64,000 nt of DNA from Miscanthus floridulus (lineage: Eukaryota; Streptophyta; Magnoliopsida; Poales; Poaceae). A model generated the notes under the pieces. That model did not search any database. It had not been told where the DNA came from and saw only the letters and a list, made by a program, of their open reading frames with translations. The translations under genes were made by a program, and so were the position numbers. Below, in pieces: positions 2,451-62,831 of the stretch (position 1 is the first letter of the stretch; each line of letters starts with the position of its first letter). The stretch covers positions 100,962,166 through 101,026,165 of the forward strand of contig NC_089587.1 in NCBI RefSeq assembly GCF_019320115.1, written 5' to 3'.

Positions 2451-4228
2451 ATGAGTGGACGACAGGAGCCGAGGTCCAAGCACAGGCATGATCCAGCACT
2501 TGAGAAGTACAAGAAGGCGAGACAGGATATGCATCCTGGATTTCAGCCGACCAGTAGGAGGTCCACCCGGGCTGCCTCTAGTGCAGTAGTTCAGTATGCA
2601 GAGGGGTCCGGGAGCTCTTCTTCTGACATAGACACTGATGAGTTCAGAGTGGAGTCTAGAGATGAAAGAAAGAGGAAGAGCACTGACAGAGGATCAGATG
2701 ATGACAGCTCAGATGAGGAGCAGGAGATTGAGGAGGAGGAGTCAGTTCCTCCAGTTCAGCACCAGCCTGGTCAGGGGATGCATTATGGTCTTCTTGAGAC
2801 ATGTCTGCCCAATGTGCCCTCCTATGTTCCTAGAGTTGACTACAGGGGAAAGGGTATGACTAGGAAGGCTAGAGATGAGTGAAGGGTTGATCCGAGGAGC
2901 TTACCTAAGGTTTAGTACGATCACCACTTCTAGACAGCCTTTCACCTGGACTTCTACTCCAGTGTGATTCTCACCAGGAACCCTGTGATTGCCAGGTCTC
3001 AGTGGATTGACTGGCAGTACATCAGAGAGTTGTAGAAGGCCTCAGTTGATCATGCCATTGCTATTTGCCAGCGCACTGGGGTTTATGAGATCATGGAGTT
3101 CCAGCATGACTGGAACACAGAGGTAGTAGCTCAGTTCTATGCTACTCTGTTTGTTGAGGAGGATGAGCGGCGGATGCACTGGATGCTTGAGGGCCAGTGG
3201 TACAGTGTTGACTATGATGTTTTTGCCGCCCAGCTTGGCTTCTCAGAGGATGATCTCCAGAGGGACAGGATCCACACCGAGTAGGTGTTACCCCCTAAGC
3301 AGCTCGCATATATGTATCCTCCTAGTGGTGAGAGAGGAGCTGTGGGGAAGGTTCTAGGTCTTCACCCTACCTACAGATACCTAGACAGGATGTTCAGGAA
3401 GACTATTGACTGTAAGGGTGGAGACAAGGGCAACATTGCAGATTATTCCAGGAACCTACTCCACAGGATGGCACCTGATGCTTGGCCCTTCAGCGTGTTT
3501 GACTTTATTTGGTTCGAGATCAGGAGTGTTGGAGAGAGGCCCCTCAAGGGCTGTGGTTTTGCTCCTTATATCATACATATGATTGAGCAGGTGACAGGGC
3601 ACACATTCGAGTATGATAAGATTCATAAGGCCCTGAAGATTATTGCAGATCTGCCTGAGACAGGGTTACCTCCAGTAGGACCAGGAGGAGCAGCCGCAGC
3701 ACTAGAGGCAGATGCACCTAGGAGTGGTGCACCAGCAGGAGCTTCACCTTCACCATGTGCTCCTTCACGTTCTACTTCATGCCGTGGCAGTTCTCCCTCG
3801 CCTATCCACAGGCTTTTCAGCTCCATATTTGGGATGTGCCGTGACATCCAGACTAGGCAGCAGAAGGAGAGGGAGGCTAGGAGGAAGGACACTCGAACCT
3901 TGAAGCAAATTGCTTCTAATCTTGAGCTTGATCCTCCTAGGTCTCCTCTATTAGATGAGGCAGCCAGTGAGCCTGAGACTGAGGAGCAGCAGCAGGCTAG
4001 ATATGATAGAGAGTATGTTGAGTTCATACAGCGACAGCAGCAGCAGCAGGCACCTGAGCACCCTGACACTCTACCACTTCAGGCTCGTGTGCCTACTCAC
4101 TCTCAGCCACATCCCAGCACTGCAGACGTCTATGCTACAGATTGGTGGAGTGACCTGACAGGTGGTGGTGGTTTCTACGGGTCTGGTGGCTATGACCCAT
4201 TTGGTGCGGGTGGTTCTCGTCCAGCCGG
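2451..4228 (+). pseudogene. Decayed non-pol ORF carried between LTR repeats
   Basis: One reading frame runs from the ATG at 2451 to the LTR junction near 4228, broken only by nonsense codons (TGA at 2880-2882, then TAGs at about 2911, 2932, 3034 and 3282-3284) and no frameshift. The N-terminal 150 residues are basic then acidic (a run of S/D/E around residues 60-100). The middle (about 3090-3660) has the pattern of a protein type common in grass repeats: a 'FYATL' segment, an 'R.LLHRMAP' segment and a 'GFAPYIIHMIE' segment. The C-terminal part is low complexity (Gln runs, Gly-rich). The family has no function I can name. No reverse transcriptase or integrase is present, so the unit looks non-autonomous. 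The open frame continues into the LTR copy to 4358, which is chimeric and not meaningful. Confidence 0.55.
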
Positions 4229-5629
4229 TGTTTGTCCAGCAGCCATAAAACTATTGTTCTCGGGTTGGTTCATTGGGAGTTCTGACGTAGGTCGGGAGTT
4301 CCGACGGTCGGGAGTCCCGGCATGGGTCGGGAGTTTCGACGTCTCGCACTTCAACTGACTTAGAGGGTTCACTGTCCTGGTCATACCGGACGTGTCCGGT
4401 ATTCATACCGGACGTGTCCGGTATGGATGACCAGAGGCCAACGGCTAGTTTTCAAAAGTCGGGAGTTCCGATGGTCGGGAGTTCCGACGTGCGTCGGGAG
4501 TTCCGACATCTCACTAACCTTAACTTAGTTACATGTTTTTCAAATATGCTGAGGGTCGGGAGTTCTGACGTGAGTCGAGAGTTCCGACAGTCGGGAGTCC
4601 CGGCATTCATCGGGAGTTCCGACACCTCACAACTTCACTGTAACTTAGTTACCGTTGGCGCAGTGTGAGTCATACCGGACGTGTCTGGTATGCATACCAG
4701 ACATGTCCGGTATTGCAACGGCTATAAAACGGCTAGTTTTTCAAGGGGGCTATAAATACCCCCAAGCCTCCACCTTTGGAAGCTGCTGATTCTGCTAAGA
4801 TAGACACACGTTTTTGAGCCTTGTCAACTCTCCTAAACCCTCTCTTAGTGAGTGTGTGATCCAAATTGCAAAATCAATTTGTGGGTTGAGAAAGAATTTG
4901 AAAAAGAGAGCAAGCCACCACTTGAGCACTTATGCATATTGTCAATCTCGTGATTCGCATTTGTTACTCTTGGACTCTTTGGTCCTAGATGGCTAGGCGT
5001 CGCCGGAGAGCAACCGAGAGATTGTGGTTGCCTCGGAAAGTTTGTAACGGTCGATTCTGCCACCTCGGAATCATTTAGTGGAAGGAGGAAAAGGAGTTGG
5101 AAAAGACTCCGGCTAGAGTGACCTTCGTGGTACCCTCTAGGGCTGACCTTCGCTGGGTCGCCCACAGCCCCCTCAACGGAGAGTAGGACTCGAATGAGTC
5201 CGAACTTCGGTAAAACAAATATCGTGTCTTAATTCGCATTTCATTTGATATTTGTGTTGCTCTAGCTGTGCTGTCGGTTCTCTGTGTATATTGTCATCTC
5301 CATTAGGTGCCTGCAGTTTGGTTTGAAGATAGAAATCGAAAGGAGCAAGTTCGGGGCTGATCTGCAGAAATCGTGTATACCGGACATGTCCGGTATTTCC
5401 TGCCTGCACTGAAAATATTTATTCTCTGTTCTAACTTGGTGTTGCAGGGTTGTAGCTTCTAGATATATTCTTTATACCTTGTTTACTTTGCAGCTAACTT
5501 GTGAGGGGTGGTAGTACTCTTAATTTGGAGTTTCCATTTTGGAAACTCCCCTTTCTAATTGTTTCCGTATTTAAAGGTGTTAATTTTCAGAAACGCCTAT
5601 TCACCCCCCCTCTAGGCGGCATCCTTTCA
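4229..5629 (+). mobile_element. SIRE/Maximus-like LTR, second copy (3' portion)
   Basis: Starting at a sharp junction near 4228, the sequence repeats the 925-2165 segment with few differences. It then continues with a true LTR 3' end: 'cctattcacccccc...tctaggcggcatcctttca', ending in CA at 5629. The same end sequence, in reverse complement, borders the SIRE-like LTR at 61,071. The 5' part of this LTR is missing. Together with 1-2165 it frames a roughly 2-kb internal insert. Confidence 0.7.
4751..4758 (+). promoter_or_regulatory. LTR TATA box, copy 2
   Basis: This is the same tataaata context as at 1421, offset by 3,330 bp. It would promote transcription rightwards into 5.5 kb if active. Confidence 0.55.
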
Positions 5630-32329: not shown

Positions 32330-32513
32330 CTCCCTCTTGATCGAATCTTCTTTGAGATCAATGTAGCTGTATGTTTGAATTCCTCGAAAAACTCTATGGA
32401 AAAAATCTAAGGAATATGTATGTATAGATATGCTATAAAAACTCCTTTAAACCTTATAGGAAAATAAGGAGAAAGTAGCATATATGAGTGTGATTTAAAT
32501 AAATCATTATGTC
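32330..32513 (-). other. Copia 3' tail left of the gypsy insertion
   Basis: It contains the polypurine tract and AT-rich sequence with aaactcctttaaaccttataggaaaataaggag. This resembles the repeated 'aaaaccc.agtgg.aaaaa' units at 48,010-48,300 on the other side of the gypsy element, showing the two parts belong together. Confidence 0.6.
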
Positions 32514-35500
32514 TGTAACAGAACCAACCAAATCATAAGAACGTAAGTACAAAAACAATCACCGAAGTGATCAAATTCCTGTACTTAAGCTCCCAAAATC
32601 CCGGTAGTCCAGAAATCACGAAGGATTTCAACCAACTCTCGACATACAAACCAAAACCGTAGTGATTCAACACAACACATTATTCGTTACAATATTTCAC
32701 AAGTAGCATTCGGATTACATCCATCAGAGTTCAAATAAAATATTACAAACCAAGTTCAAATTTGCAGAAGCAACATAGTTTAGTACATAACTTTATAGTT
32801 TCAAATACATTGCTAGATCTCAGTCATGTCCCACAAAAGCATCTTCAGGTACGAGAACTATGAGAGACCGCGTCCAATGGTCTAGTCTTCATCCCAGCCG
32901 GGAGAAGGCAATACTTGCAGCAACTAAAGTAGAACTGGTCATCTGCAATAGGTGGGAGATAAACCCTGAGTACGAGAAGGTACTCAGCTAGACTTACCCG
33001 TCAAAACCAGAAATAAAAGACACCAAGGGTCATGCAAGGCTTATGAGGTGGGCTAGCTGGACACAGTTGCATAAAAGAGCTGATGAATATAGTAACCAAT
33101 TTAAACTTCGCATCAAGTTATCATCATTTACCTGTCCACTAGATTTATACCTGTACTAGAGCACTCACTTATTAGGAGCAAACAATATTAACCATAGCAG
33201 GTATAATAAGGCTGTCATCATCATATCATCATTTCCGAACCATTATGTTATTTAGTGTATCTACTTTGGAGATAAGCCCGTCAAGTTCTCACTAACCGGG
33301 AGAGACGACGACTTGAATCGAATTACAACTCAGCTGAGGGGGTATTCCTAACTCTCACCCTGGCATACTTTGCAAGGGTAGCCGTGGGTCACCTTTGGGA
33401 CAACTCAGGAATAAAATTCGCGGGTTCGATCAGCGCCAGCGCTCTCAGGGATTACCCTTCTGCCAGTACAATCAGGACTTTTAAATCACCTGCCCTTGGA
33501 CTCACGCCTACAGCTCCCTTCCGAGGCGTACTTTATACTTATCGACTCCCGGCCTGAGGTGAGCTACTCGGCTTCGTGGTCGGTCTTCAGACACGGCCAC
33601 CTAAGAGAGAGGCATACATTCAACATGAACAGGAAAGGCTCCAAGATTCAGTCCTTAAGCGACACAGACGGAGTCACTACAAACCGGTAAGCCTCCATCC
33701 GGTCTTCATTTCAAATTAAGACAGGTTTTTTTGCACGATAGCAAATATAGCCAACCGTGCCATATGTATCCCTATATCTCGTAGGTGACAGGAAATCACC
33801 CGACTTCTACCGCGTTTAAGCAGGGCTAAGCACTACACAAACCTGAGCTACATAGGATTCAGGGTATCAATATCTGGACAAGGATTGGATAACCAATACA
33901 GCAAGTGTTTGCATCCAACACCTAAACTTAATGCAACAATATATATATGTAACAATTAATACTTTAACTGCATTTTAGAAATTAGGAGGCTTAATATGCT
34001 CCGGGGCTTGCCTTTCACAAAGTTGCACGGACGGTGATCCGGGCACTCAACGGCGACCTTGTCTGGCACCTCTCCCGTGGGCTGCACCTCCTGAATCTCC
34101 GGTGTTGGCTGCTGCTGCTCCCCGCTCGGTTCCTTGAATTCCAGCAGTGTCGCACCTTCCGGTACACCTATTGCATGCCGATGCACAAGATAAATATCAT
34201 GGATGCATAAGGAATGACATGATGCTCATGATGAATGGATCATAGTAAGTGTTTAACGAAACATCACTGGACACTCGTTTACCGATTAAGAATAGCTCTA
34301 TTCAAATCACTTTAAAACATGTATCTAACTTAACTTGAAGAACAAGATCAACTTACCTAACTTGAATAACCTATGATAAAGATGCTCATCTTCAGTTAAA
34401 GGCCTAACACCTAGGAACATTACCACAAGCTTAGGAAATACTAAAGGCATACTTAAATCAAAGTTAAGGTTTTACATGCAACGAGTAGTTCCTTAATTCA
34501 ATCATAACCAGAGTTCTATAAATTCAAATGACTTGCAAGAGGACATTATGGAAAGCTTATAAAATTCTCTACAATTCATTTATAAACATCAAAGCATGAT
34601 TCTTATGTTAACCAAATCGAATTCAAGTAAACCTAGAATCTGTCCAGAAATGACACGTTTACTAAATTAATTATTTAGTGATGATGCAAAAACATAATTG
34701 GATCAAACCAAGTTTACCAACTTGTTGCACATACTAGAGGAACATCAGAAAGTATAGTGCCAACTTCTAAATAATTTATTTAATGCCCTTTTCTAATTTA
34801 TTTAATTAATTAGGTGATTAAAGCAATATATAGTAAAACTATTCAGAAAAATCTACAAAAATTACAGTAACTATCTCATGCTTCACATAGACTACCATAA
34901 AAATTTCAAAGTCATTGGGCAAGCAGAACTTGCTATATCCAAAATAACATGTGGCGTGTCTATTCTAGCATAATTAGGAAATCCTAATGAAAAGTGGTCA
35001 AGCAACAGATTTAACATTTTTCCTAGCATCATTCTAGCATAAGAATAGCACTCACCAAATTTTACCTTTACTGGATCTATAGAAAAATTATGAAAATTCA
35101 CACAAGATCCATCCATGCAAACAAGAGAATTTCCTAACTCCTACATACAGTGTCCAAAATGTATGAAAATTTAACTACAAGCTATTCATGATATGAGAAG
35201 TACACCATAAAAATTTCATGTCATTTGGAGCTACATAGAAAAAGATATAATTACCCCTATTTCCTTCATGATTAAAAGAGATAATTAGCAACTCCATTTT
35301 TCATAACAGAACATGGCATAAATTATATTTTTAATATAAACTAGACATTATCATGAACTCAACAAAATTGGAACCATATCATTTGAATCTACCAACCAGG
35401 AGATACATATTTTTGTAATATATACACAAATCTGTGAAAAGAATAAAACAAAACGAATTTGAAACCCTAACTCTACTGCTAGGCCGGCCCGAAGGACACG

Positions 35501-37176
35501 GCGGCCCGTGAAGCACACGCTGGCGCAGCCCAGACTTGGCGTGGCCCAGAACTCGCTCTCGCCTCCGCTTCAGCGACTGACAAAGGGACCCCGCACATCA
35601 GCGAGACAGACCGGGGAGGGAAAGAGGACGACGACGTAGCTCGTTGACGGCGACAGCTCTAGCGAGGTCATCGGTGCTACGGTGTTCGCCTCACCCATGC
35701 GCATCTAACGGTGCCATCTATTGAAGCTATTGCCATGGCTACAGGGGGTGGCGACGATCATGGTGGTGCACGGCCACGGCTTGGCCGGCTCCGACGAGGT
35801 GACGGCGTCGCGGCCCTAGTGGGTGACCCTACGAGCATCAGTAGCATTCACAGTACCTAGCGCAAGGGAGAGAGGGGATGGGAAGGCCACGGTGGTAGTT
35901 GGCCGTGTGGAGCACCAACTCTGATGAGGTCCTGCCATGGCGGCGGTGGAAGAAATGGCGAATACGCCCTTACCAAGCCTCAAATGACCTGACTGAAAGG
36001 TGGAGGTGGTAGAGGAGATCACGGTGAAGCTAGGGGCAAGATGGTCGACACGTTTTTGTAGTGGCAAGCACGCAAGGTGACGGCGATGCTCGATCAGAAA
36101 TGGAGGAGCTGCTGCGACATGCCACTGCGCGTGGTGGAGGCGAAAGAGATGCAAATGGAGCAGACGACTCGGTCGGGCAGGCACTGGCCTTCATCTGGAG
36201 CTTGGACGCGTGATGTGGAGACGTTGGCAGAGCATGCACGCCACGTGGCGATCAGCTTCTGAGCCGGTCGGCCACGGTGAGCTCTGGTAGTTTTCTGAAA
36301 CGTTGATTCAGTGTTCTACGACGACAAGTGACAGCGTGAATTCGACGATCCGTAACTCCCAAACGGTGGCGATTTGGTTCATGGTATAGTTAACAAAATT
36401 GAAGACCTAAGTGAGTACAACAACTTCGTCAATTGGAGCTCGATTTGGTTCGGCCTAGTTAGGGAGATACAAGCCTCCGAACATTGGTACACGAAACTGT
36501 AAATCAACTCTGGGACTTAGAATTTTCTAAGTGTGAATTCAGCATGGAAATATGACTTGTGGGCCTTGTTTGAACATGTTCTAGCCATTTTCATGAGTTT
36601 ATCATAAAACAACTTTTGTTCCTTGATAAATTGGCTACAACTTTGGTAAAGGGTGCACAGCCATGCAAGGTCTCTAAGTTGGTCTTTTGAATCAGTCAAA
36701 TAGTGGCACTCTAAGGGTCATTCAAAGTCAAACCTCCACTTGAGGGCATTTTTGTCATTTTGATCCACATGAACAATGTCCCAACAATTACCCTAAGTGT
36801 AGTTAAGGTGTATTAGACCATAATCAACCACTTTACACAAGTGCTATACCAATTTCTAATGATCACATGTGATGAAGCAACAAAATAATCAATTCACTCA
36901 AATGTTGCAATTCCATGTTTCACATGTTTCATTACTTTTGTTGCAATTTTAACTTGCCACATTCCTACCATGTTGCCATGTTTCAAGGTATAAGAAACTC
37001 ATGTTGCATTCATATGTTGCACTACTACCATTCACAAGCAAATCAAGTATGAAATAAACAGAATTGCGAATGTTGCATATGTATGTTTCAGTGACAATGG
37101 CATGATGAGATAAATGATGCATATGTTTATGAAATGAAATGCACTTTTGTGGAAGCCAAACACCTAGGGTGTTACA
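32514..37176 (-). repeat. 3' LTR of gypsy element, 4,663 bp
   Basis: It pairs with 43,339-48,001. In the first 120 aligned bases I count 5 differences, 4 of them transitions. It includes a GC-rich part (about 35,460-36,290) with short open frames that are also present, with changes, in the other LTR; none looks like a known protein. Confidence 0.93.
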
Positions 37177-37190
37177 ACCTTCCCCCCTAG
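37177..37190 (-). other. Polypurine tract of gypsy element
   Basis: The minus strand reads ctaggggggaaggtt directly before the LTR start tgtaacaccc. This is the plus-strand primer position. Confidence 0.7.
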
Positions 37191-37791
37191 AAAAATCTCA
37201 TCCCGAGATTTGGAAAGCGTACCATTTAATATAGAAAGCCGGATAATTCTCCTTTAGATAATCTTCACGCTCCCATGTTGCATCCCGATCACTATGATTA
37301 CTCCAAACTATCTTGTATAACTTAACTACTCACCTACGAGTCACTCTTTCTTGAGTATCCAGAACCTGCACGGGCTTCTCCTTGTAAGAAAGATCATATT
37401 TCAATTCGATTGTCCTCGTTGCTATTCTTTCCTCGGGAATACGAAGACACTTCTTCAGCTGAGACACATGGAATACCGGGAATATAGCTCCCATTTCACA
37501 TGGTAGATCGAGTTTATAGGCTACTCTTCCACTTTTCTCGATAATGCGGTAAGGTCCAACATATCGAGGCTCAAGTTTTCTTTTGATTCCAAAATGTTTT
37601 ACTCCTTTCATAGGGGATACCTTTAGATAAACATGATCACCTACTTCAAACTCAATAGGTTTTCTTCTCTTGTCAGCATAGCTCTTTTGTCTAGCCTGAG
37701 CGGCAGTCATATTCTTCTGTATAGTTCGGACTTGCTCTTCGGCTTCTTTTATAAAATTAATACCATAGAATCTTTTTTCTCTGGGTTCCAC
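37190..37791 (-). pseudogene. Integrase C-terminus with chromodomain-like end (one nonsense codon)
   Basis: The frame carries 'QKSYADKRRKPIEFEVGDHVYLKVSPMKGV', 'LEPRYVGPYRIIEKSGRVAYKL' and 'IFPVFHVSQLKKCL' (the GPY/F module), then 'VQVLDTQERVTRR' and a TGA at about 37,330. Beyond the stop the same frame continues 'VVKLYKIVWSNHSDRDATWERE' to about 37,190, the group II chromodomain-like tail of Tekay chromoviruses. Such tails help target integration to heterochromatin marks in related elements. It lies directly downstream of the integrase core with one stop between. Confidence 0.8.
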
Positions 37792-38613
37792 CTAGTTCAA
37801 AGGAGTTCTACACTTGCGGCCATAAAGTGCTTCGAAAGGAGCCATTTTGATACTCTCTTGATAACTGTTGTTATAAGAGAATTCAGCGAGAGGCAACCAT
37901 TCCTCCCAAGAGCCTTTGCAAGAGATAAGATAAGCTCTAAGCATGTCTTCAAGAATTTGATTAACACGCTCAGTTTGTCCTGATGTTTGCGGATGATAGG
38001 CAGAATTGTGGATTAGATGAGTGCCAAGGTTCTGATGTAAGCACTCCCAAAAGCGAGCCGTGAATTGTGGTCCTCTATCTAAAACAATGGATTTGGGTAC
38101 ACCATGGAGACGTACCACTTGTTGAAAGTAAATCTTAGCATAATTGTGAGGTTGATAGGTAGACTTGACCGGAATAAAGTGAGCGGATTTGGTTAGACGA
38201 TCTACGATAACCCAGATGGAATCACAACCCTTGTTGGTAGTGGGTAATCCAACAATGAAATCCATAACAATTTCTTCCCACTTCCAGCCAGGAATAGAGA
38301 GTGGCTGCAATAATCTAGGCCTCATGTGAATAGCCTTGACTCTACAATAGTTATCACACCTTGCCACATAGGCTGCGATTTCTTTCTTCATCTTGGTCCA
38401 CCAATAATACAGCTTGAGATCTTGATACATTTTACTACTACCAGGATGGATGGACAATTTAGAAGAATGGGCTTTAGCCATAATTTGATTTCTATGTTCT
38501 TTGTCTTTGGGTACTACAAGCCTATCATTAAACCAGAGAATTCCTTTGTCATCGACCCTAAAGTGCTTGGTCTCTTGCTCTTCCATCTTCCGCTTGATAT
38601 GAAACACGCCCAC
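37792..38613 (-). pseudogene. Integrase core of Tekay-like element
   Basis: It is open for 273 residues. The zinc-binding H-H-C-C region ends 'ARCDNYCRVKAIH'. The catalytic core has Asp in 'EEIVMDFIVGLP', Asp in 'VLDRGPQF' and Glu in 'SGQTERVNQILEDMLRAY', spaced as the D,D(35)E triad. It closes with 'FSYNNSYQESIKMAPFEALYGRKCRTPLN'. A TAG at 37,789-37,791 separates it from the C-terminal module. Confidence 0.85.
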
Positions 38614-38639
38614 ATCAGTCTTCTAGAGTTTGATAATTT

Positions 38640-39024
38640 GACTTCTAAGAGAGCAATCTACAGTGATATTGTGGAGTACTATAGGATGAAAGAGGTGTGC
38701 CAGATGAAAGTCTTCACTCACTAAGGAATTGCAATGGGCCTTTCTGCTTAAGGCATTAGCAACCACATTTGCCTTACCAGGATGGTAGTGCACTTGAAGG
38801 TTGTAGTCTTTGATTAATTCTAACCATCATCGTTGACGCATGTTCAACTCGGGTTGAGTAAAGATGTACTTGAGACTTTTATGGTCCGTATAGATGTTGC
38901 ACACATTACCTAGCAAGTAATGTCTCCAAATTTTTAGGGCATGTACAACCGCGGCTAGCTCTAAGTCATGGGTAGGATAATTGACTTCATGTTTTCGAAG
39001 CTAGCGCGAAGCATAAGCAATGAC
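38640..39024 (-). pseudogene. RNase H of Tekay-like element (several stops)
   Basis: The minus strand in pieces reads 'VIAYASR', '[32 protein letters not shown]' and '[23 protein letters not shown]', then 'DYNLQVHYHPGKANVVANALSRKAH'. This is the standard chromovirus RNase H. Stop codons lie after MQEG, ASR and RQRW. Confidence 0.75.
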
Positions 39025-39681
39025 TCAGCCCTCCTGCATAAGAACACACCTCAAACCGGTGCCATATGCATCATAATAGACATTAAAAGGCTTCTCGATG
39101 TCAGGTTGTGCCAATACAGGAGCAGAGGTTAGTAAGGTCCGCAAAGTGTGGAAAGCCTCTTCACACTTCGGAGTCCACACAAACTTCTCATCCTTTTGAA
39201 GTAGTCGAGTCATGGGCTTGGCAATTTTTGAGAAATCTAGGATAAAGCGACGATAGTAGCTAGCCAAACCTAGGAAACTTTGGACTTCTATGACCGTAGT
39301 AGGTGCCTTCCACTCAAGGACTTCTTGCACCTTAGTAGGGTCAACCAAAATTCCATCACCAGATAACACATGACCTAGAAAAGGTATCTTGTTCAACCAG
39401 AATTTGCACTTGCTGAACTTAGCATAAAGCTGGTTGTCACGTAATCGAGTTAACACAATTCTCAGATGTTCGGCATGTTCTTCTTCATTCTGAGAATATA
39501 CAAGGATATCATCAATGAACACGACGACAAACTTGTCCAATTCCGGCATGAATACTGAATTCATCAGGTACATAAAGTGTGCCAGAGCATTTATCAACCC
39601 AAAGGACATGACAAGGTATTCGAACAAGCCATATCGAGTAGAGAAAGCTATCTTAGGTATATCTTCAGGACAAATTTTGAT
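39025..39681 (-). pseudogene. Reverse transcriptase palm/thumb of Tekay-like element
   Basis: The frame continues directly from the upstream piece after one TAG at 39,682-39,684, which falls inside the conserved 'RSGYH.I' motif. It has '[22 protein letters not shown]', the catalytic [10 protein letters not shown] (about 39,500-39,519), '[11 protein letters not shown]' and '[12 protein letters not shown]'. The catalytic aspartates are intact. Confidence 0.85.
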
Positions 39682-40536
39682 CTAATGGTAGCCAGACCTC
39701 AAATCGATCTTGGAGGATACCTTAGCTTTGGAGAGCTGATCAAACAGAATATCGATGCGAGGAAGAGGGTATTTGTTCTTGATGGTAACAGCATTAAGGG
39801 GGCGATAATCTACGCACATGCGCAAAGACTTGTCCTTCTTCTTCACAAAAATAGCTGGACAACCCCAAGGAGAAGAACTAGGCCGAATCAAACCTTTCTT
39901 TAATAGCTCATTTAACTGACTCTTCAGCTCAGCCAACTCATTGGGCGGCATTCTATAGGGCCTTCGAAAAATAGGAGCCGTACTCAGAATGAGTTCTATC
40001 TCGAATTCTACTTCACGGTCCAGAGGTAATCCAGGCAAGTCATTAGGGAAGACATCTGGAAACTCACAGACAACCGATATATCTTCAATGGCTTTGGCTA
40101 GGGTAGCATTGGCTGTATTATGGGTAGCGATATCATGAGGTAACTGCACTAGAAAACCCTTCTTATCCACAGGATCCCTCAACATTACCACACGGGTTGA
40201 TGTATAGATCAACACTCCATTCCTGCTCATCCACTTCATCCCTAGGATTACATTGATTCCTACCCTCGGTAGAACTACAAGATTCATAAGGAACTCTTGA
40301 TCCCCAATCTCAATCTTTACATCCTTAACTACTTGGTTAGTCATGATATTATTTCTAGCAGCACTAATACAATAACCACCCTTGTCAATTGTAATCACAT
40401 TCATCTTATGCTTAGATGCAAAAGTAGAACTCACAAAGGAATGCGAAGCATCCAAATCAAAGAGCACAACTGCAGGGTGATCATTAACAAGGAACTTACC
40501 AGCGGTGACCACTTCACCAGCAGGAATTTCCTCCAT
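39682..40536 (-). pseudogene. Protease and N-terminal RT of Tekay-like element
   Basis: It is open for 284 residues. The retropepsin region has '[18 protein letters not shown]', where the usual D-S/T-G catalytic triplet reads D-L-D, so the protease active site is lost. The protease C-terminal motif '[10 protein letters not shown]' is intact. The RT N-terminus follows: '[20 protein letters not shown]', '[17 protein letters not shown]', '[25 protein letters not shown]' (in two parts). It ends at a TAG within 'LRSGYH'. Confidence 0.85.
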
Positions 40537-40549
40537 AGTAGTGTAGTGA

Positions 40550-41780
40550 ACACGCCCCTGACAGACGTTTCCCTGAGCATTCTGCTTGGAAGGATAGGGA
40601 CACTTATTAGCCCAGTGACTAGGCTAGTTACAATTCCAGCACGGCCTGTTAGCTGGTGGGACATTGGAGCTACCCTACCTAGAGGTATTCTTTGGCAAGG
40701 AAATTATATACCCCTTGCGGAAACTAGTTTTGGCTTGATTCTTCTTCTGAGGTGGGCGGTACCGGACATTAGCATTGGGTGGACAATATTGGGTTTTGGA
40801 TACCACTGGTGCTTTAGACTAAAAAGCACCTGCCTCAAAGTTTCTTTTACGGTTCTTGGAAGTAGCATATATTTTATCATTATTCTCCTGAGTCAGGGTG
40901 TCACTGATAAACTCATTGAAGGTGACACACTTGCAGTTGCCCATAGACTTCATCAGTTTAGGGGAAAGTCCTCTCTTGAAACTAGCTATCCTTTTGGCGT
41001 CAGTATCAACAAACTCAGGAGCATACCTCGCCAGGTTGTTAAATGCCTGGAGGTATTCATTAAGACTCTTGTTGCCTTGAGTTAGCTTCATGAACTCGGT
41101 ATGCTTAATGGCCATGAGACCAGGAGAGATAAAATGTCCCCAAAAAGCTATCTAGAACTGGTCCCAAACTATCTTGACATTTGCAGGGAAGGTGGTCCTA
41201 TGATGGGTCCACCAGATGTCTGCAGGGCCTTGGAGCTGGTGTCCTACATACGAGGCCTTCATACCTTCTGTCAAACGGAGCAATCCAAACCTTTGCTCTA
41301 TCGTACTCAACCATTCATCAGCTTGTAATGGTTCTTCTGCCTCTCTAAAGATAGGAGGCTTTATGTCCATGAAGTCCTTAAAGCTGCTATACTGGTTCGG
41401 CTTGGGTCCCTGGCGGACATGTCGGTCATCACGGTTAGCCAATTGGTGCATAGCCTCAGCTAGCATGCACTGACTTTCGATGACTGTCTGCATTAGCTCA
41501 GCTGGTGTGGGCGGTGGAGGAGGTGGTTGTTCCTCATCTCCAAGGCTATGACCACGACGAAGATTATAAGCCATCTGTAAAATGTATAGCCAATGAGCAC
41601 TGACAATGTGGAAATTTTGTAGATGAATTGTATAATTATGCCAAACTGACTCCAATGGAGAAAATGAATTTATACTATCAATAGAGGCACAATCATCCAT
41701 CACAATCACACAACTCATCAAGCGCATCGATTGACACATTAATGCGATGAACTTAACCAACAATGAGATCGATAGACCAC
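40550..41780 (-). pseudogene. Gag of Tekay-like element (stops)
   Basis: The N-terminal part (41,763-41,152) includes 'EEQPPPPPPTPAELMQTVIESQ', 'DDRHVRQGPKPNQYSSFKDFMDIKPPIF', 'ADEWLSTIEQRF' and 'YVGHQLQGPADIWW'. After a TAG comes 'LTQGNKSLNEYLQAFNNLARYAP' and 'IASFKRGLSPKLMKSM' (41,115-40,819). A degraded zinc knuckle ('[26 protein letters not shown]') lies around 40,550-40,640. Gag forms the particle and binds element RNA. Confidence 0.8.
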
Positions 41781-41986: not shown

Positions 41987-42583
41987 CTACGCATCGTCCT
42001 CGAAGTCAGTGTCGAAGATCTCTCCTCCATCTTCATCACTAGCAGGTTCTAACTCCTCATCTTCCTCCTCATCAGGTGGAATGTCTTCAGGTCCATTAAT
42101 CTCAGTGTCATCATCATCCGCAGCCGTGATGACACCAGAGCCCATCTCATCCTCATTGTCATTCTCATCATCAGGGGGTAGGAGAGGGTGAAGCTGACTG
42201 TGTAATAGGTGAACCTCCTCATGGAGATGATCATTGTACTCTTTGGCAGCTACCAACTGCTGCTCCAGTTCTACCTGTCGCGCTCTCAACACATTCTCCT
42301 TGTGCCAGGCTTCATTCCATTGGTTCAGCACGTGAATCAACATACATTCACAGTTGCGGTGAGCAACTATCAACCTCTAAACCTCTAGGGTCTCTTGATC
42401 CCATTCCTATGTGACTTGCTCCAAATGGTGCTGAGCTACACTCCTCTCAGCAGTCACCCGAGCTAGCTCTGTCCTCAGCCTTTCCGCCTTAGTAGGCTCC
42501 GGACGGGGCTCACAAGGAGCTAACCGATGACGAGGTGCCCTGCCTCTGATGGACTTGCGAGCAGTGCATTTCATGCACGCCAT
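41987..42583 (-). pseudogene. Leader ORF with histone H3 tail-like N-terminus, coiled coil and acidic tail
   Basis: One minus-strand frame runs from the ATG at 42,581-42,583 to the stop at 41,987-41,989 (198 codons), broken only by TAG at codons 59 and 69. It begins MACMKCTARKSIRGRAPRH. Numbered as in mature H3, A1, K4, T6, A7, R8, K9, S10, G13, A15, P16, R17, L20 and A21 match, and K14 is Arg. The mismatches at positions 2, 3, 11 and 12 are each a single C-to-T or G-to-A change from a codon for the H3 residue. Residues about 30-130 are rich in Glu, Gln, Leu and Ala with heptad-like spacing, a likely coiled coil. Residues 138-198 are about half Asp/Glu. It sits between the primer-binding site and gag, where some chromoviruses carry no gene. 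I know no named family; function is unknown, and histone mimicry is inference. Confidence 0.65.
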
Positions 42584-43324
42584 CTGTAGCAAAAAGTTGC
42601 AACGTAAGGGGAGAATCATTTAAGGGATACGAAATTTAATTAGTCAAGACCATCAATTTTAAAGGAGGGAGTAATGCAAAAATGCTATGTATGTTTGAAC
42701 ATGATGCATGCATGATTCGTACGTCCTCACAAACCTAGAAAAGTTTAAAGGCTAGCAAAATATATGGTGGCATACATACGTTCTCTCGTATACGGTAGCT
42801 AATCGATCTACAACGATACATTGTTAGTGTACCTGCAGAAAATTTCATTTTAGCCCAATAATTTTCCAAAAAGGCATGTAAAGTAAGCAGTAAACTAAAT
42901 ACTTTCATACATACATCCCCCGATGTATATACTCTAGTATCACAACTACCCGACAAAGATACCCACACTTAAGTACTCTCATAGATACATGACCGAACAT
43001 GTAAGTATGCGAGCAACCACAACTACTCTCCCCTAGACCGACGGTTGGACGGTCATACTCTCACAACTCCCACTTACCAGAGCATAGAGGTATTTTGATC
43101 CATACATTACCACCCAAGCGGATAGCATCCATACAATAGCACGCCGTATGGACAACGAAACAGAAACAAGCAGGAACCCCCAAGTTAGTACTTTAATAAG
43201 CCACCTAAGAGTCCTTATTTGGGCATAAGGGATATGACCACTAGCAACACTTAGTATTTAATTTAGAATTTTCACAAATACTTTTGTTTTAAATACATAA
43301 ATGACATGTTTAGTGTCGAATCTT

Positions 43325-43336
43325 GCTCTAATACCA
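43325..43336 (-). other. Primer-binding site of gypsy element
   Basis: The minus strand reads tggtattagagc, one base from the tggtatcagagc site complementary to initiator methionine tRNA. It lies two bases beyond the LTR end at 43,339. Confidence 0.8.
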
Positions 43337-43338
43337 GC

Positions 43339-46300
43339 TATAACAGAACCGACCAAATCATAAGAACATAAGTACAAAAACAATCATCGAAGTGATCAAA
43401 TTCCTGTACTTAAGCTCCCATAATCCCGGTAGTCCGGAAATCACGAAGGATTTCAACCAACTCTCGACATACAAACCAAGACCATAGTGATTCAACACAA
43501 CACATCATTCGTTACAACATTTCATAAGTAGCATTCAGATTACATCCATCAGAGTTCAAATAAAATATTACAAACCAAGTTCAAATTTGCAGAAGCAACA
43601 TAGTTTAGTACATAATTTCATAGTTTCAAATACATTGCTAGATCTCAGTCATGTCTCACAAAAGCATCTTCAGGTACGAGAACTATGAGAGACCGCGCCC
43701 AACGGTCTAGTCTTCATCCCTAGCCGGGAGAAGGCAATACTTGCAGCAACCAAAGTAGAATTGATCATCTGCAATAGGTGGGAGATAAACCCTGAGTACG
43801 AGAAGGTACTCAGCTAGACTTACCCATCAAAACCAGAAATAAAAGACACCAAGGGTCATGCAAGGCTTATGAGGTGGGCTAGCTGGACACAGTTGCATAA
43901 AAGAGCTTATGAATATAGTAACCAATTTAAACTTTGCATCAAGTTATCATCATTTACCTGTCCACTAGATTTGCACCTGTACTAGAGCACTCACCTATTA
44001 GGAGCAAACAATATTAACCATAGCAGGTATAATAAGGCTGTCATCATCATATCATCATTTTCGAACCATTATGTTATTTAGTGTATCTACTTTGGAGATA
44101 AGCCCGTCAAGTTCTCACTAACCAGGAGAGACGGTGACTCGAATCGAATTACAACTCAGCTGAGGGGGTATTCCTAACTCTCACCTTGGCATACTTTGCA
44201 AGGGTAGCCATGGGTCACCTTTGGGACAACTCAGGAACCAAATTCGTGGGTTCGATCAGCACCAGCGCTCTCAGGGATTACCCTTCTGCCAGGACGATCA
44301 GGACTTTTAAATCACCTGCCCTTGGACTCACGCCTACAGCTCCCTTCTGAGGCGTACTTTATACTTATCGACTCCCGGCCTAAGGTGAGCTACTCGGCTT
44401 TGTGGTCGGTCTTTAGACACGGCCAACTAAGAGAGAGGCATGCATTCAATATGAACAGGAAAGGCTCCAAGATTTAGTCCTTAAGCGACACAGACGGAGT
44501 CACTACAAACCGGTAAGCCTCCATCCGGTCTTCATTTCAAATTAAGACAGGTTCTTTTCCACGATAGCAAATATAGCCAACCGTGCCATATGTATCCCTA
44601 TATCTCGTAGGTGACAGGAAATCACCCAACTTCTACCGCGTTTAAGCAGGGCTAAGCACTACACGAACCAGAGCTACATAGGATTCAGGGTATCAATATC
44701 TGGACAAGGATTGGATAACCAATGCAGCAAGTGTTTGCATCCAACACCTAAACTTAATGCAACAATATATATATGTAACAATTAATACTTTAACTGCATT
44801 TTAGAAATTAGGAGGCTTAATATGCTCTGGGGCTTGCCTTTCACAAAGTTGCACGGACGGTGATCCGGGCACTCAACGGCGACCTCGTCTGGCACCTCTC
44901 CCGTGGGCTGCACCTCCTGAATCTCTGATGTTGGCTGCTGCTGCTCCCCGCTCGGTTCCTCGAATTCCAGCAGTGTTGCACCTTCCGGTACACTTATTGC
45001 ATGCCGATGCCCAAGATAAATATCATGGATGCATAAGGAATGACATGATGCTCATGATGAATGGATCATAGTAAGTGTTTAACGAAACATCACTGGACTC
45101 TCGTTTACCGATTAAGAATAGCTCTATTCAAATCACTTTAAAACATGTATCTTACTTAACTTGAAGAACAAGATCAACTTACCTAACTTGAATAACCTAA
45201 GATAAAGATGCTCATCTTCAGTTAAAGGCCTAACACCTAGGAACATTACCACAAGCTTAGGAAATACTAAAGGCATACTTAAATCAAAGTTAAGGTTTTA
45301 CATGCAACGAGTAGTTCCTTAATTCAATCATAACCAGAGTTCTATAAATTCAAATGACTTGCAAGAGGACATTATGGAAAGCTTATGAAATTCTCTACAA
45401 TTCATTTATAAACATCAAAGCATGATTCTTATGTTAACCAAATCGAATTCAAGTAAATCTAAAATCTATCCAGAAATGACAGGTTTACTAAATTAATTAT
45501 TTAGTGATGATGCAAAAGCATAATTGGATCAAACCAAGTTTACCAACTTATTGCACATACTAGAGGAACATCAAAAAGTATAGTGCTAACTTCTAAATAA
45601 TTTATTTAATGCCCTTTTCTAATTTATTTAGTTAATTAGGTGATTAAAGCAATATATAGTAAAACTATTCAGAAAAATATACAAAAATTACAGTAACTAT
45701 CTCATGCTTCACATAGACTACCATAAAAATTTCAAAGCCATTGGGCAAGCAGAACTTGCTGTATCCAAAATAACATGTGGCATGTCTATTCTAGCATAAT
45801 TAGGAAATCCTAATGAAAAGTGGTCAAGCAACAGATTTAACATTTTTCCTAGCATCATTATAGCATAAGAATAGCACTCACCAAATTTTACCTTTACTAG
45901 ATCTATAGAAAAATTATGAAAATTCACACAAGATCCATCCATGCAAACAAGAGAATTTCCTAACTCCTACATACAGTGTCCAAAATGTATGAAAATTTAA
46001 CTACAAGCTATTCATGATATGAGAAGTACACCATAAAAATTTCATGTCATTTGGAGCTACATAGAAAAAGATATAATTACCCCTATTTCCTTCATGATTA
46101 AAAGAGATAATTAGCAACTCCATTTTTCATAACAGAACATGGCATAAATTATATTTTTAATATAAACTAGACATTATCATGAACTCAATAAAATTGGAAC
46201 CACATCATTTGAATCTACCAACCAGGAGATACATATTTTTGAATATATACACAAGTCTGTGAAAAGAATAAAACAAAACGAATTTGAAACCCTAACTCTA

Positions 46301-48001
46301 CTGCTGGGCCGGCCCGAAGGACACGACAGCCCACGAAGCACACGCTGGCGCAACCCAGACTCAGGGTGGCCTAGAACTCGCTCCCGCCTCCACTTCAGCG
46401 ACTGACAAAGGGACCCCGCACGTCAGCGAGACAGACAGGGGAGGGAAAGAGAACGATGGCGTAGCTTGTCGACTGTGATAGCTCCGGCGAGGTCATCGGT
46501 GCTACGGTGTTTGCCTCACCCATGTGCATCTAACAGTGCCATCTATTGAAGCTATTGCCATGGCTACAGGGGTGGCAACGATCATGGTGGCGCACGGCCA
46601 CAGCTTGGCCGGCTCCGGTAAGGTGATGGCGTCGCGGCCCTAGTGGGTGACCCTACGAGCATTAGTAGCATTCACAGTACCTAGTGCAAGGGAGAGAGGG
46701 GATGGGAAGGCCGTGGTGGTAGTTGGCCTCGTGGAGCGCCAACTCCGGCGAGGTCCCACCATGGCGGCGGTGGAAGAAATGGCAAATACGCCCTTACCAA
46801 GCCTCAAATGACCCGATTGAAAGGTGGAGGTGGTAGAAGAGATCATGGCGAAGCTAGGGGCAAGATGGCCGACGCATTTTTGCAGTGGCGAGCATGCAAG
46901 GCGACGGTGATGCTCGGTCAGAAATGGAGGAGCTGCTGCGGCGTGCCGCTGCGTGCGGTGGAGGCGAAAGAGATGCAAATGGAGCAGACGACTCGGTCAG
47001 GCAGGCGCTGGCCTTCATCTGGAGCTTGGATGCGCAACGTGGAGACATTGGCAGAGCATGCATGCCACGCGGCAATTAGCTTCTGAGCCAGTCGGCCACG
47101 GCGAGCTCTGGCAGTTTTCTGAAACGTTGATTCAGTGTTCTACGATGACGACTGATAACACGAATTCGACGATCCGTAACTCCCAAACGGTGATGATTTG
47201 GTTCATGGTATAGTTAACAAAATTGAAGACCTAAGTGAGTACAACAACTTCGTCAATTGGAGCTCGAGTTGGTTCAGCCTGGTTAGGGAGATACAAGCCT
47301 CCAAACATTGGTACACGAAACTTTAAATCAACTCTGGGACTTAGAAAATTTCTAAGTGTGAATTCAGCATGGAAATATGACTTGTGGGCCTTGTTTGAAC
47401 ATGTTCTAGCCATTTTCATGAGTTGATCATAAAACAACTTTTGTTCCTTGATAAATTGGCTACAACTTTGGTAAAGGGTGCATAGCCATGCAAGGTCTCT
47501 AAGTTGGTCTTTTGAATCAGTCAAATAGTGGCACTCTAAGGGTCATTCAAAGTCAAACCTCCACTTGAGGGCATTTTTGTCATTTTGATCCACATGAACA
47601 ATGTCCCAACAATTACCCTAAGTGTAGTTAAGGTGTATTAGACCATAATCAACCACTTTACACAAGTGCTATACCAATTTCTAATGATCACATGTGATGA
47701 AGCAATAAAACAATCAATTCACTCAAATGTTGCAATTCCATGTTTCACATGTTTCATTACTTTTGTTGCAATTTTAACTTGCCACATTCCTACCATGTGG
47801 CCATGTTTCAAGGTATAAGAAACTCATGTTGCATTCACATGTTGCACTACTACCATTCACAAGCAAATCAAGTATGAAACAAACAGAATTGCGAATGTTG
47901 CATATGTATGTTTCAATGACAATGGCATGATGAGATAAATGATGCATATGTTTATGAAATGAAATGCACTTTTGTGGAAGCCAAACACCTAGGGTGTTAC
48001 A
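43339..48001 (-). repeat. 5' LTR of gypsy element, 4,663 bp
   Basis: It is the same length as the left LTR and collinear with it throughout. The short open frames at 45,718-45,942, 46,640-46,978 and 47,231-47,524 are counterparts of those at 34,892, 35,816 and 36,517. They show the LTR pairing, not genes. Confidence 0.93.
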
Positions 48002-48430
48002 ATTGGTATCCCATTAAAAACCCTAGTGGAGAAAAAAAATAGGAGATACGACATATAGATTACTTCCCAAAAACCATTTTAGGAAAAATATGAGAAGCAA
48101 TATAAAGTGATATGTCGCTAAAACTCCCGTAAAAACCCAGTGGAAAAATTAGGAGAAAATATGACGACATATCATTGGTATTGCCTCTTGGATAACTCAC
48201 ATAAAAAACCTTTTCAGGGGGAAACCATGTATGAGTTGTGAGGGCAATATGTGTCTTTGATATTTTCCACAAAAGCCCCAGTGGGGAAAATAGAAAATAT
48301 AACACATGCTTATGTTAATATTACCTCATTAAAAACTTTAACAAGAAACCTTATAAGTAAAACTTGTGAAAGAAAAGAGTATAATATGATGCTGGTACAG
48401 GTCAACATCTAGGAGATGTCTCTCTCTGAT
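48002..48430 (-). repeat. Copia 3' non-coding tail with repeated 'aaaaccc-agtgg-aaaa' units
   Basis: Several irregular units with taaaaaccctagtgg / taaaaacccagtgg / aaaagccccagtggg occur at 48,015, 48,130 and 48,270, spaced by gacatatag-like sequence. They lie between the RNase H end and the polypurine tract and are common in Copia 3' regions. Confidence 0.55.
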
Positions 48431-57615: not shown

Positions 57616-58360
57616 TAAAAGGTCCTAATGGCTAGAGGAAGATGAGTAGCCTATTAAAAATTTCTACAATAACATTTAACAAACCGGTTAGACAATTATG
57701 AGGCGAAGCAAGTGTTGCGCTAGCCTACTAAAAATGCAAGCCACCTACCACAATTTTAGTTTATATAGTTTCTATCCACACAATGGCTATATCACTATAC
57801 TAAGTTAGTATGCTCTCAAATGCTAACTAAAGAGCCATACTAACCAAACTAACAAGCTCTCATAACTAGCTACACTAAAGAGCTTGACAACTAGTTTACG
57901 GTAATATAAAGAGAGTGAGCAAGATGGTTATACCGCCATGTCGAGGAAGGAGCCAATCAATCACAAAAATGAATACTAATGAAGATCAATCATCTCGAAA
58001 TTAAATGATGACACAAAGATTTTTTATCGAGGTTCACTTGCTTGCCGACAAGCTAGTCCTCGTTGTGGAGATTCACTCACTTGGAGGTTCACACGCTAAT
58101 TGGCATCACATGCCAAACCCTCAATAGGATGCCGCACAACCAATACAAGATGAGGATCACACAGGCCATGAGAAATCCACTAGAGTACCTTTTGGCTCTC
58201 TGCCGGGGAAAGGTCAAGAACCCCTCACAATCACCACGATCAGAGCCGAAGACAATCACCAACCTTCGCTCGACGATCCTTGCTGCTCCAAGCCGTCTAG
58301 GTGGCGGCAACCACCAAGAGTAACAAGCGAATCCCATAGTGAAACACAAACACCAAGTGC
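57616..58360 (-). repeat. Truncated 3' LTR of SIRE-like element
   Basis: 745 bp align with 61,071-61,817 and include the same LTR end (taaaaggtcctaatgg versus tgaaaggtcctaatgg). The junction to pol is at ...caccaagtgc|tcatcatgc. The matching LTR text continues ...caccaagtgcctctag at 61,817. Confidence 0.85.
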
Positions 58361-61070: not shown

Positions 61071-62831
61071 TGAAAGGTCCTAATGGCTAGAGGGGGGGGG
61101 TGAATAGCCTATTAAAAATTTTAACAACAACACTTAACAAACAAGTTAGATAATTATAAGGCGAAGCAAGTGTTGCGCTAGCCTACTAAAAATGCAAGCT
61201 ACCTACCACAATTCTACTTTATATAGTTTCTATCCACACAATGGCTATATCACTATACTAAGTTAGTGCGCTCTCAAATGCTAACTAAAGAGCCACACTA
61301 ACCAAACTAACAAGCTCTTACAACTAGCTACACTAAATAGCTTGACAACTAGTTTGCGGTAATATAAAGAGAGTGAGCAAGATGGTTATACTGCCGTATC
61401 GAGGAAGGAGCCAATCAATCACAAGAATGAATACCAATGAAGACCAATCACCTCAGAATCAAATGATGACACAAAGATTTTTACCGAGGTTCACTTGCTT
61501 ATAGGCAAGCTAGTCCTTGTTGTGGCGATTCACTCACTTAGAGGTTCACGCGCTAATTGGCATCATACGCCAAACCCTCAATAGGGTGCCGCAGAACCAA
61601 CACAAGATGAGGATCACACAAGCCACGAGAAATCCACTAGAGTACCTTTTGGCTCTCCACCGGGGAAAGGTCAAGAACCCCTCATAATCACCACGGTCGG
61701 AGCCAGAGATAATCATCAACCTCCGCTCAACGATCCTTGCTGCTCCAAGCCATCTAGGTGGCGGCAACCACCAAGAGTAACAAGCGAATCCCATAGCAAA
61801 ACACGAACACCAAGTGCCTCTAGATACAAACACTCAAGCAATGCACTTGGATTCTCTCTCAATCTCACAAAGATGATGAATAAATGATGGAGATGAGTGT
61901 GAGGGCTTTGGCTAAGCTCACAAGGTTGCTATGTCAATACAAATGGCCAAGAGAGTGAGCTAGAGCTAGCCATGGGGATTAAATAGAGAGCCCCCATGAA
62001 TAAAGCCATTGTACCCCTTCACTGGGCACAACACGGGGTGACCGGATGCTCCGGTCAGATCGACCGAACGCAGGACCCCAACATCCGGTCGTTTCCAGTA
62101 AGCATCCAAAGACAAAATTTCATGATCGGACGTATCCGGTCACCCTTGATCGGACTCATCCAGCGTCCGGTCAGTCACCCTCTTCACTGTGTGCTGCCAT
62201 GTCTATAGGACCGGATGCACCCCATCAGCGTCTGGTCAGTAAGTGACCCAGCGTCCGGTCAAAGACCGACACCAGCGTCTTCACTGCTTCCACTGACCGG
62301 ACGCAGGACCCCAGCGTCCGGTCACTGCGTGACCAGCGTGACTAACTTCTTTTTAACTCTATCTTCTTCACCCTTGCTTAAATGTGCCAACCACCAAGTG
62401 TATCACCTTGTGCACATGTGCTAGCATATTTTCACAAACATTTTCAAGGGTGTTAGCACTCCACTAGATCCTAAATGCATATGCAATGTGTTAGAGTATC
62501 TAGTGGCACTTTGATAACCGCATTTCGATACGAGTTTCACCCCTCTTAATAGTACGGCTATCGATCCTAAATGTGATCACACTCACTAAGTGTCTAGATC
62601 ACCAAAATAAAATGGCTCCTACCACTTATACCTTTGCCTTGAGCCTTTTATTTTTCTCTTTCTTCTTTTCAAGTCCAAGCACTTGATCATTACCATGGCA
62701 TCACTATCATCATGTCATGATCTTCATTTGCTTCACCACTTGGAATGTGCTACCTATCTCATAATCACTTTGATAAACTGGGTTAGCACTTAGAGTTTCA
62801 TCAATTCATCAAAACTAAACTAGAGCTTTCA
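61071..62831 (-). repeat. Complete 5' LTR of SIRE-like element, 1,761 bp
   Basis: On the minus strand it starts TGAAAGCTCTAG and ends ...ACCTTTCA. Around 62,035-62,335 it has an array of inverted ccggac/gtccgg motifs (for example gaccggatgctccggtc and gaccggacgcaggaccccagcgtccggtc). These are related in style to the palindromes of the first LTR in the window. Confidence 0.88.

Follow-up and report, generated by a model that had tools for sequence, protein, structure and literature searches.

Additional open reading frames in the 5' part of Tekay elements are known from both sunflower and grasses (PMC11728184, partial text). They have been described in RIRE3, RIRE8, Retrosat2, ZMsat2, Sorsat2, Brasat2 and group 2 of the sunflower Tekay elements, where they lie between the 5' LTR and gag-pol of elements with long LTRs (PMC3485330 and PMC11728184, partial texts), and it is by this position and description that we liken the locus reported here to them. 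The ORF0 of RIRE3, RIRE8 and Retrosat2 is described without a clear function, Gao et al. having suggested metabolic enzymes (PMC3485330, partial text), and a likeness to double-stranded-RNA-binding proteins has been proposed for the sunflower extra ORF (PMC11728184, partial text). In the available portions of these sources, the word "histone" has no occurrence in the main texts of PMC3485330 and PMC11728184 and is absent from the extra-ORF mini-review PMC7264820.

The window analysed here, by which we mean the whole stretch of 64 kb, carries on its minus strand a decayed LTR retrotransposon, and all features of this element given below lie on that strand. Its 5' LTR (43338..48002) pairs with the 3' LTR (32513..37177) at 95.9% identity over 4,667 columns, and the K2P distance between the two is 0.0414, with 162 transitions and 24 transversions. 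At a rate of 1.3e-8 per site and year this divergence would correspond to about 1.6 million years. A primer-binding-site-like sequence, TGGTATTAGAGC (43325..43336), which we take to be of the tRNA-Met type, and a polypurine tract, AGGGGGGAAGG (37178..37188), the latter found in a three-frame reading of the window, flank the coding part. The gag-pol region (37200..41574) was delimited by Pfam matches and three-frame reading; it contains several in-frame stops and matches Retrotrans_gag, RVP_2 protease, RVT_1, RNase H, integrase H2C2 and rve, the rve match scoring under its curated cut-off. The probable gag start codon (41572..41574) has TACAG directly 5' of it, and at the other end of gag-pol a chromodomain-like integrase tail with a TWE motif and one stop can be recognised by eye (37230..37385, approximate limits). 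Features of the Tekay type are therefore present, namely LTRs, a tRNA-Met-like primer-binding site, a polypurine tract and the order gag-PR-RT-RH-INT, although other chromoviruses have these too. The 3' LTR begins with TGTAACACCC one base in, as compared with TGTCACACCC in RIRE8/Retrosat2 (PMC3485330, partial text). The chromodomain motifs reported for Tekay, (K/R)-X-(L/T)-R-X-(k/r) and EEXTWEXE (PMC3350952, partial text), are both matched in part by eye, with a stop inside the first. By its gene and LTR features, its LTR start and these partly matching motifs, the element is a chromovirus that probably fits the Tekay clade, and the term "chromovirus" used for it by the first-pass annotation is supported by the LTRs, primer-binding site, polypurine tract, gag-pol domain order and chromodomain-like end. 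No obvious target-site duplication is seen by eye at 32507-32513 and 48002-48010, despite an LTR pair that is 95.9% identical. Elsewhere in the window there are two direct repeats, one of about 1.27 kb (917-2170 / 4225-5478, 93.8% identical), which may be LTRs belonging to another short element, and one of about 0.75 kb (57618-58360 / 61073-61817, 91% identical), perhaps a further LTR pair.

Between the 5' LTR and gag lies an additional sense ORF (41987..42583, 198 codons plus stop), in the position that characterises the ORF0 or 5' aORF class of RIRE3, RIRE8 and Retrosat2. This ORF0 begins MACMKCTARKSIRGRAPRHRLA and carries two in-frame stops, at residues 59 and 69. A search of about 5.8 billion proteins with ORF0 returned 206 relatives at E<=0.001, the best of the 120 listed covering the full query at 83% identity, and a profile of ORF0 N-terminal pieces gave 495 matches, 120 of them listed. 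The listed matches of both searches were combined into a set of 219 proteins. With a whole N-terminus defined as at least 18/37 matches to an ORF0 start, it is visible in 117 of the 219, the profile search having favoured N-terminal pieces; from the ORF0 search alone the count is 29/120. When the other 102 were aligned, 7 were found to begin inside the tail and to match onward, and 95 to begin at residue 32 or later. No differing N-terminus occurs among the 219 relatives, of which those 95 are uninformative on the tail. A query with the N-terminal 48 residues retrieved 17 proteins at E<=10 among 91 candidates, all of them already in the set, so that no further ORF0 with an H3-like start was found within the database and length range of that search. 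Pattern scans for the relatives' DNA gave 56 and 43 stretches in viral_contigs and 112 in genome_contigs, none of which was confirmed.

Directly after its initiator Met, ORF0 resembles the tail of histone H3 (Met plus 21 residues, 42518..42583). The first-pass annotation had reported 13 of 21 in-register identities for the window copy, and our reading of the same codons confirms this count. Shuffling the H3 tail 200,000 times never gave 13 identities, the maximum being 9, for an ORF that was itself picked by a reader scanning many ORFs. Over the 117 rows the majority residue equals that of H3 at 18 of 21 positions; single rows have 10-18 identities with a median of 15, and 18 of them have 13 or fewer, like the window copy. 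H3 residues are kept, in rows out of 117, as follows: A1 113, R2 86, T3 105, K4 105, T6 106, A7 109, R8 90, K9 115, S10 114, T11 58, G12 91, G13 114, A15 88, P16 110, R17 65, Q19 63, L20 114 and A21 110. Three are absent or nearly so, Q5 and K18 in all rows and K14 in all but 2. Position 5 is very variable, never being Q, and position 11 is divided between T (58) and A (55). Past A21 the likeness ends, except for R26 (90/117). Searches of the PDB sequences lead to the same histone: in whole-protein phmmer runs the ORF0 relative P0012 gave 132 matches up to E 1 (top E 3.2e-4) and the relative P0104 gave 129 (top E 2.3e-3), an ORF0 profile gave 133 (top E 2.8e-4) and a fourth search gave 80, and in each case the best 60 were all of the H3 family. 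The E-values are modest because 21 residues hold few bits. The annotation had expected other copies to lie closer to H3 than this one, and had named the absence of the H3-like start from intact copies in other genomes as the finding that would count against it. At the protein level that start is present in all 117 relatives showing the whole N-terminus, and R2, T3, T11 and G12 recur there at the counts given above. With a median of 15 identities most relatives do lie closer to H3 than the window copy, as expected, and the codons of the window copy are those that the annotation had assumed. A chance resemblance in one decayed copy, which the large number of ORFs seen by a reader could suggest and nothing else does, was accordingly rejected, since 117 related rows with a majority of 18/21 and H3 as the top PDB match of whole ORF0 relatives leave it practically no probability. 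As far as sequences can tell, this accessory protein of a retrotransposon carries what is a real, family-wide and nearly complete H3-tail mimic, with a putative function to which we return below.

Whether the tail is more than a relic was approached through its decay and its conservation. Across 17 clear tail sites the rows deviate from the majority 237 times, and in 210 of these cases a single C>T or G>A change is enough; were all single-base changes equal, about 65 of 237 would be expected, under a uniform codon assumption. The view of the first-pass annotation that C-to-T and G-to-A decay has eroded the tail is thus borne out, and since the deviations are mostly of this type, its inference that the living parents were nearer to H3 holds. 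The same bias limits what the lysines can say: lysine codons are hardly hit by C>T and G>A decay and arginine codons easily, therefore K9 in 115/117 proves little and we have withdrawn it as proof of selection, and the retention of K4 and K9 in decayed rows is not in itself evidence for selection. An earlier selection test of ours (internal to terminal changes 0.24 at H3-matching sites vs 0.55 elsewhere, Fisher p 1.5e-6) was also set aside as biased, because its tree used the same columns with which it was compared. We replaced it by a leave-block-out count on the protein tree, in which each 21-column block is excluded from its own tree. The internal share of changes is 0.20 in the tail and 0.18-0.38 in eight overlapping blocks of the remaining ORF0. 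By this protein-level count the tail appears to be constrained like the rest of ORF0, and not more.

This equality bears on two readings that ask little of the H3 likeness. One is neutral capture, in which the start of an H3 gene was taken up and has been carried along functionless; the sharp start at Met and the end near residue 21 agree with it, as does a tail no more conserved than the remainder of ORF0. However, when the rows are split by positions 4, 5 and 11 into four overlapping groups, the majority tails have 16, 18, 17 and 16 of 21 residues identical to H3, and it is difficult to see why all four should hold 16-18 while single copies decay, which makes neutral capture very improbable in our judgement. 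The other is that a captured or convergent H3-like start has become a basic region that aids nuclear import or binds nucleic acids, its H3 likeness being a leftover. The first 30 residues of P0012 include 10 K/R, the changes K14R and K23R preserve the charge, and a tail conservation merely equal to that of the rest of ORF0 is what such a region would lead one to expect. A basic patch, however, has no need of the uncharged T3, T6, A7, S10, G12, G13, P16, L20 and A21, which are kept in 91-114 of the 117 rows; the uncharged A15, Q19 and T11 are kept less, in 88, 63 and 58. We regard this reading as unlikely.

In residues 1-27 of the 117 rows lysines occur at K9 (115) and K4 (105) and elsewhere only 8 times, and K14, K18, K23 and K27 of H3 are lost, position 14 being R in 109 rows, 18 being H in 113, 23 being R, H or C in 115 and 27 being P in 105. 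In 12 rows, which form one group, position 4 is R, so that K9 is the sole lysine of that group's majority tail. Judged from the 117 rows, ORF0 retains an H3 tail with K9 as its principal modifiable lysine. The free A1-R2-T3-K4 end could instead occupy LSD1-like demethylases, COMPASS-type writers or PHD fingers, much as SNAG domains occupy LSD1, and the conservation of A1, T3 and K4 (113, 105 and 105 of 117) together with a match that stops at residue 21 is compatible with this. The 12 rows with R4 argue that K4 is dispensable, and we consider a mimic directed at K4 improbable.

Published contacts of plant H3K9me2 readers allow the tail to be compared with what such proteins use. AGDP1 contacts A1, R2, K4, A7, R8 and K9me2, with no specific contact to T3, Q5, T6 and S10 (PMC6208443, partial text), and ADCP1 contacts R2, K4 and K9me2, with no direct contact to A7, R8 and S10 (PMC6318295, partial text). 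The set A1, R2, K4 or R4, A7, R8 and K9 is intact in 61 of the 117 copies, 54 of them with K4, and position 5, which AGDP1 does not contact specifically, is the one that is never Q in ORF0. The tail would fit AGDP1 and ADCP1 in part. In CMT3/ZMET2, H3 residues 1-10 are bound by the BAH domain and residues 14-23 run along the methyltransferase domain; activation requires K18, and H3(1-17)K9me2 gives no appreciable stimulation (PMC9256654, partial text). Among the residues relevant to CMT3, K18 and T22 are found in none of the 117 rows, L20 in 114 and R17 in 65, with H at position 17 in 39. The absence of K18 from all 117, with L20 and partly R17 kept, suggests a decoy that would fill K9me2 pockets without switching CMT3 on.

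Our best explanation, to which we give somewhat less than an even chance, is that ORF0 presents a K9-methylated H3-tail decoy to host H3K9 writers and readers and so weakens local silencing. A more specific form of it, in which a dead-end H3 tail devoid of K14, K18 and K23 fills the H3K9me2 pockets of CMT3, withholds the K18 signal and jams the H3K9me2/CHG-methylation loop, is doubtful. Several observations count against the decoy. R17 and T22, both CMT3 contacts, are respectively H in 39 rows and T in none; residues that readers are reported not to contact are kept as well (A7, R8 and S10 for ADCP1, PMC6318295; T3, T6 and S10 for AGDP1, PMC6208443; partial texts); and the tail's internal share of changes, being like that of other ORF0 blocks, shows no special constraint on it. 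Furthermore, H3 is very abundant, and a decoy must therefore act locally or multivalently.

The same 117-row tail and lysine pattern would equally serve a tether, in which K9-methylated tails bind heterochromatin readers and thereby keep, or return, element RNA, particles or integration complexes at heterochromatin. We know of no physical link of ORF0 to integrase or Gag. ORF0 is separate from gag-pol, and a tether leaves the loss of K18 without explanation; on the other side, ADCP1 is multivalent for H3K9me2 (PMC6318295, partial text), and the targeting of heterochromatin by group II chromodomains lacks an explanation (PMC3350952 and PMC12786077, partial texts). On balance this reading is rather unlikely. 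A narrower proposal of the first-pass annotation, that the chromodomain of the element's own integrase recognises the methylated ORF0 tail, finds in the chromodomain-like integrase tail the partner that it needs. Tekay chromodomains, however, belong to group II, which is missing the first aromatic-cage residue, Y24, and usually the third, Y48 (PMC3350952, partial text); sunflower Tekay chromodomains have a single aromatic (PMC11728184, partial text), and by eye W alone is kept in the chromodomain of the window's element. With its cage so reduced, binding to its own integrase tail is not supported and we hold it to be highly unlikely.

The predicted architecture of ORF0 is compatible with a displayed tail. 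An AlphaFold2 model of relative P0012 (39 sequences in the alignment; mean pLDDT 78.5, pTM 0.39) leaves residues 1-31 unstructured, forms a single helix of 103 residues over 32-134 and leaves 135-192 unstructured. The helix, with pLDDT of about 98 in its core, corresponds to 42182..42490 of the window. It keeps a single heptad phase in 6/6 windows, and 41 of 1000 shuffles are as hydrophobic at the a/d positions; by this check, for which the first-pass annotation had called, the helix is likely, though not certain, to form a coiled coil. The remainder (41990..42181) is acidic and predicted from low pLDDT to be disordered: residues 136-192 of P0012 (57 residues) contain 26 D/E and 0 K/R. The alignment places a D/E-rich conserved motif, SDEDGGEIFDTDSEDDA (41990-42060), at its end, and this motif is well conserved in many of the aligned ORF0 relatives; it could form another functional site, such as one that binds basic histones. 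No histone fold was found, the AlphaFold2 model of P0012 consisting of a long helix and disorder, and the 14 Pfam families that any of 39 ORF0 members matched at E<=0.1 (best E 0.0059) including no histone family. In a Pfam search with three ORF0 relatives nothing scored above the curated cut-off.

Display of the tail also depends on where translation begins. Twelve codons before the tail's ATG the window has another ATG in the same frame, and the corresponding residues are included in 52 of the 117 rows. If this upstream ATG is used, the tail is not at a free N-terminus. The bases directly before the tail's ATG, CTTTTTGCTACAG, resemble a splice acceptor, and if an acceptor is used there the upstream ATG would be removed and the tail would be the true N-terminus. 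The ATG of gag is preceded by ATTTTACAG, and both start codons stand directly after TACAG, itself preceded by a T-rich stretch (42584-42597 for ORF0 and 41575-41589 for gag), with TACAGATGGC in common. This shared TACAGATGGC context could represent two alternative splice acceptors or a common start context, and hence a route to two ORFs from one RNA.

Taken together, the decoy that we favour would operate as follows. ORF0 would be a nuclear accessory protein displaying the H3-tail mimic. Its initiator Met, as in H3, would be removed, leaving residues 1-21 as a free and disordered tail that retains the residues on which H3K9 enzymes and readers rely (A1, R2, K4, A7, R8 and K9) and drops the acetylatable K14, K18 and K23. 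The helical stalk, by multimerising, would present several such tails side by side, and either histones or the tail might be held by the acidic C-terminal part. K9 of the tail would then be methylated and would occupy SUVH enzymes, CMT3, ADCP1/AGDP1 and SHH1, weakening silencing around the element while it is expressed. The element may thus imitate the histone H3 tail on which the silencing marks of jumping genes are written, and the strategy it may reveal is one in which a transposon counters H3K9/CHG silencing by supplying a copy of the substrate that bears the mark. Such a mimic would give the unexplained ORF0 of these elements a testable role, and the ORF0 relatives would offer a natural series of H3-tail variants, informative on which residues matter.

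A handful of viruses are known to mimic histones, for the most part with very short motifs, and ARKS/ARKT-type motifs of this kind occur in G9a, influenza NS1 and SARS-CoV-2 ORF8, although the last case is reportedly disputed. Among the open-licence papers listed by our searches none describes a retrotransposon ORF that mimics H3, and prior art elsewhere is possible. Like ORF0, those proteins bear an H3-like motif in a non-histone protein and are proposed to engage the H3 machinery. In contrast to their short motifs, the plant retrotransposon family described here bears nearly the whole H3 tail at the correct end of the protein, its group majorities agreeing with H3, in register from the N-terminus, at 16-18 of 21 residues, and carries it on a predicted helical stalk. 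SNAG-domain proteins and EZHIP use H3-tail mimicry to occupy a histone-modifying enzyme, as we propose for ORF0; they differ in being host proteins, in the enzymes concerned and in their lower identity to H3. For the VANDAL anti-silencing proteins we know of no H3 likeness. They are element-encoded accessory proteins that counter silencing, as ORF0 is proposed to do, but their protection is described as sequence-specific (PMC11728184, partial text). The proposed action of ORF0 may also be set beside other elements that have drawn on the epigenetic machinery of their hosts. Retrotransposons are said to have captured DNA methyltransferases, and here the difference is one of kind, such a captured protein being an enzyme whereas ORF0 would be a mimic of the histone substrate.
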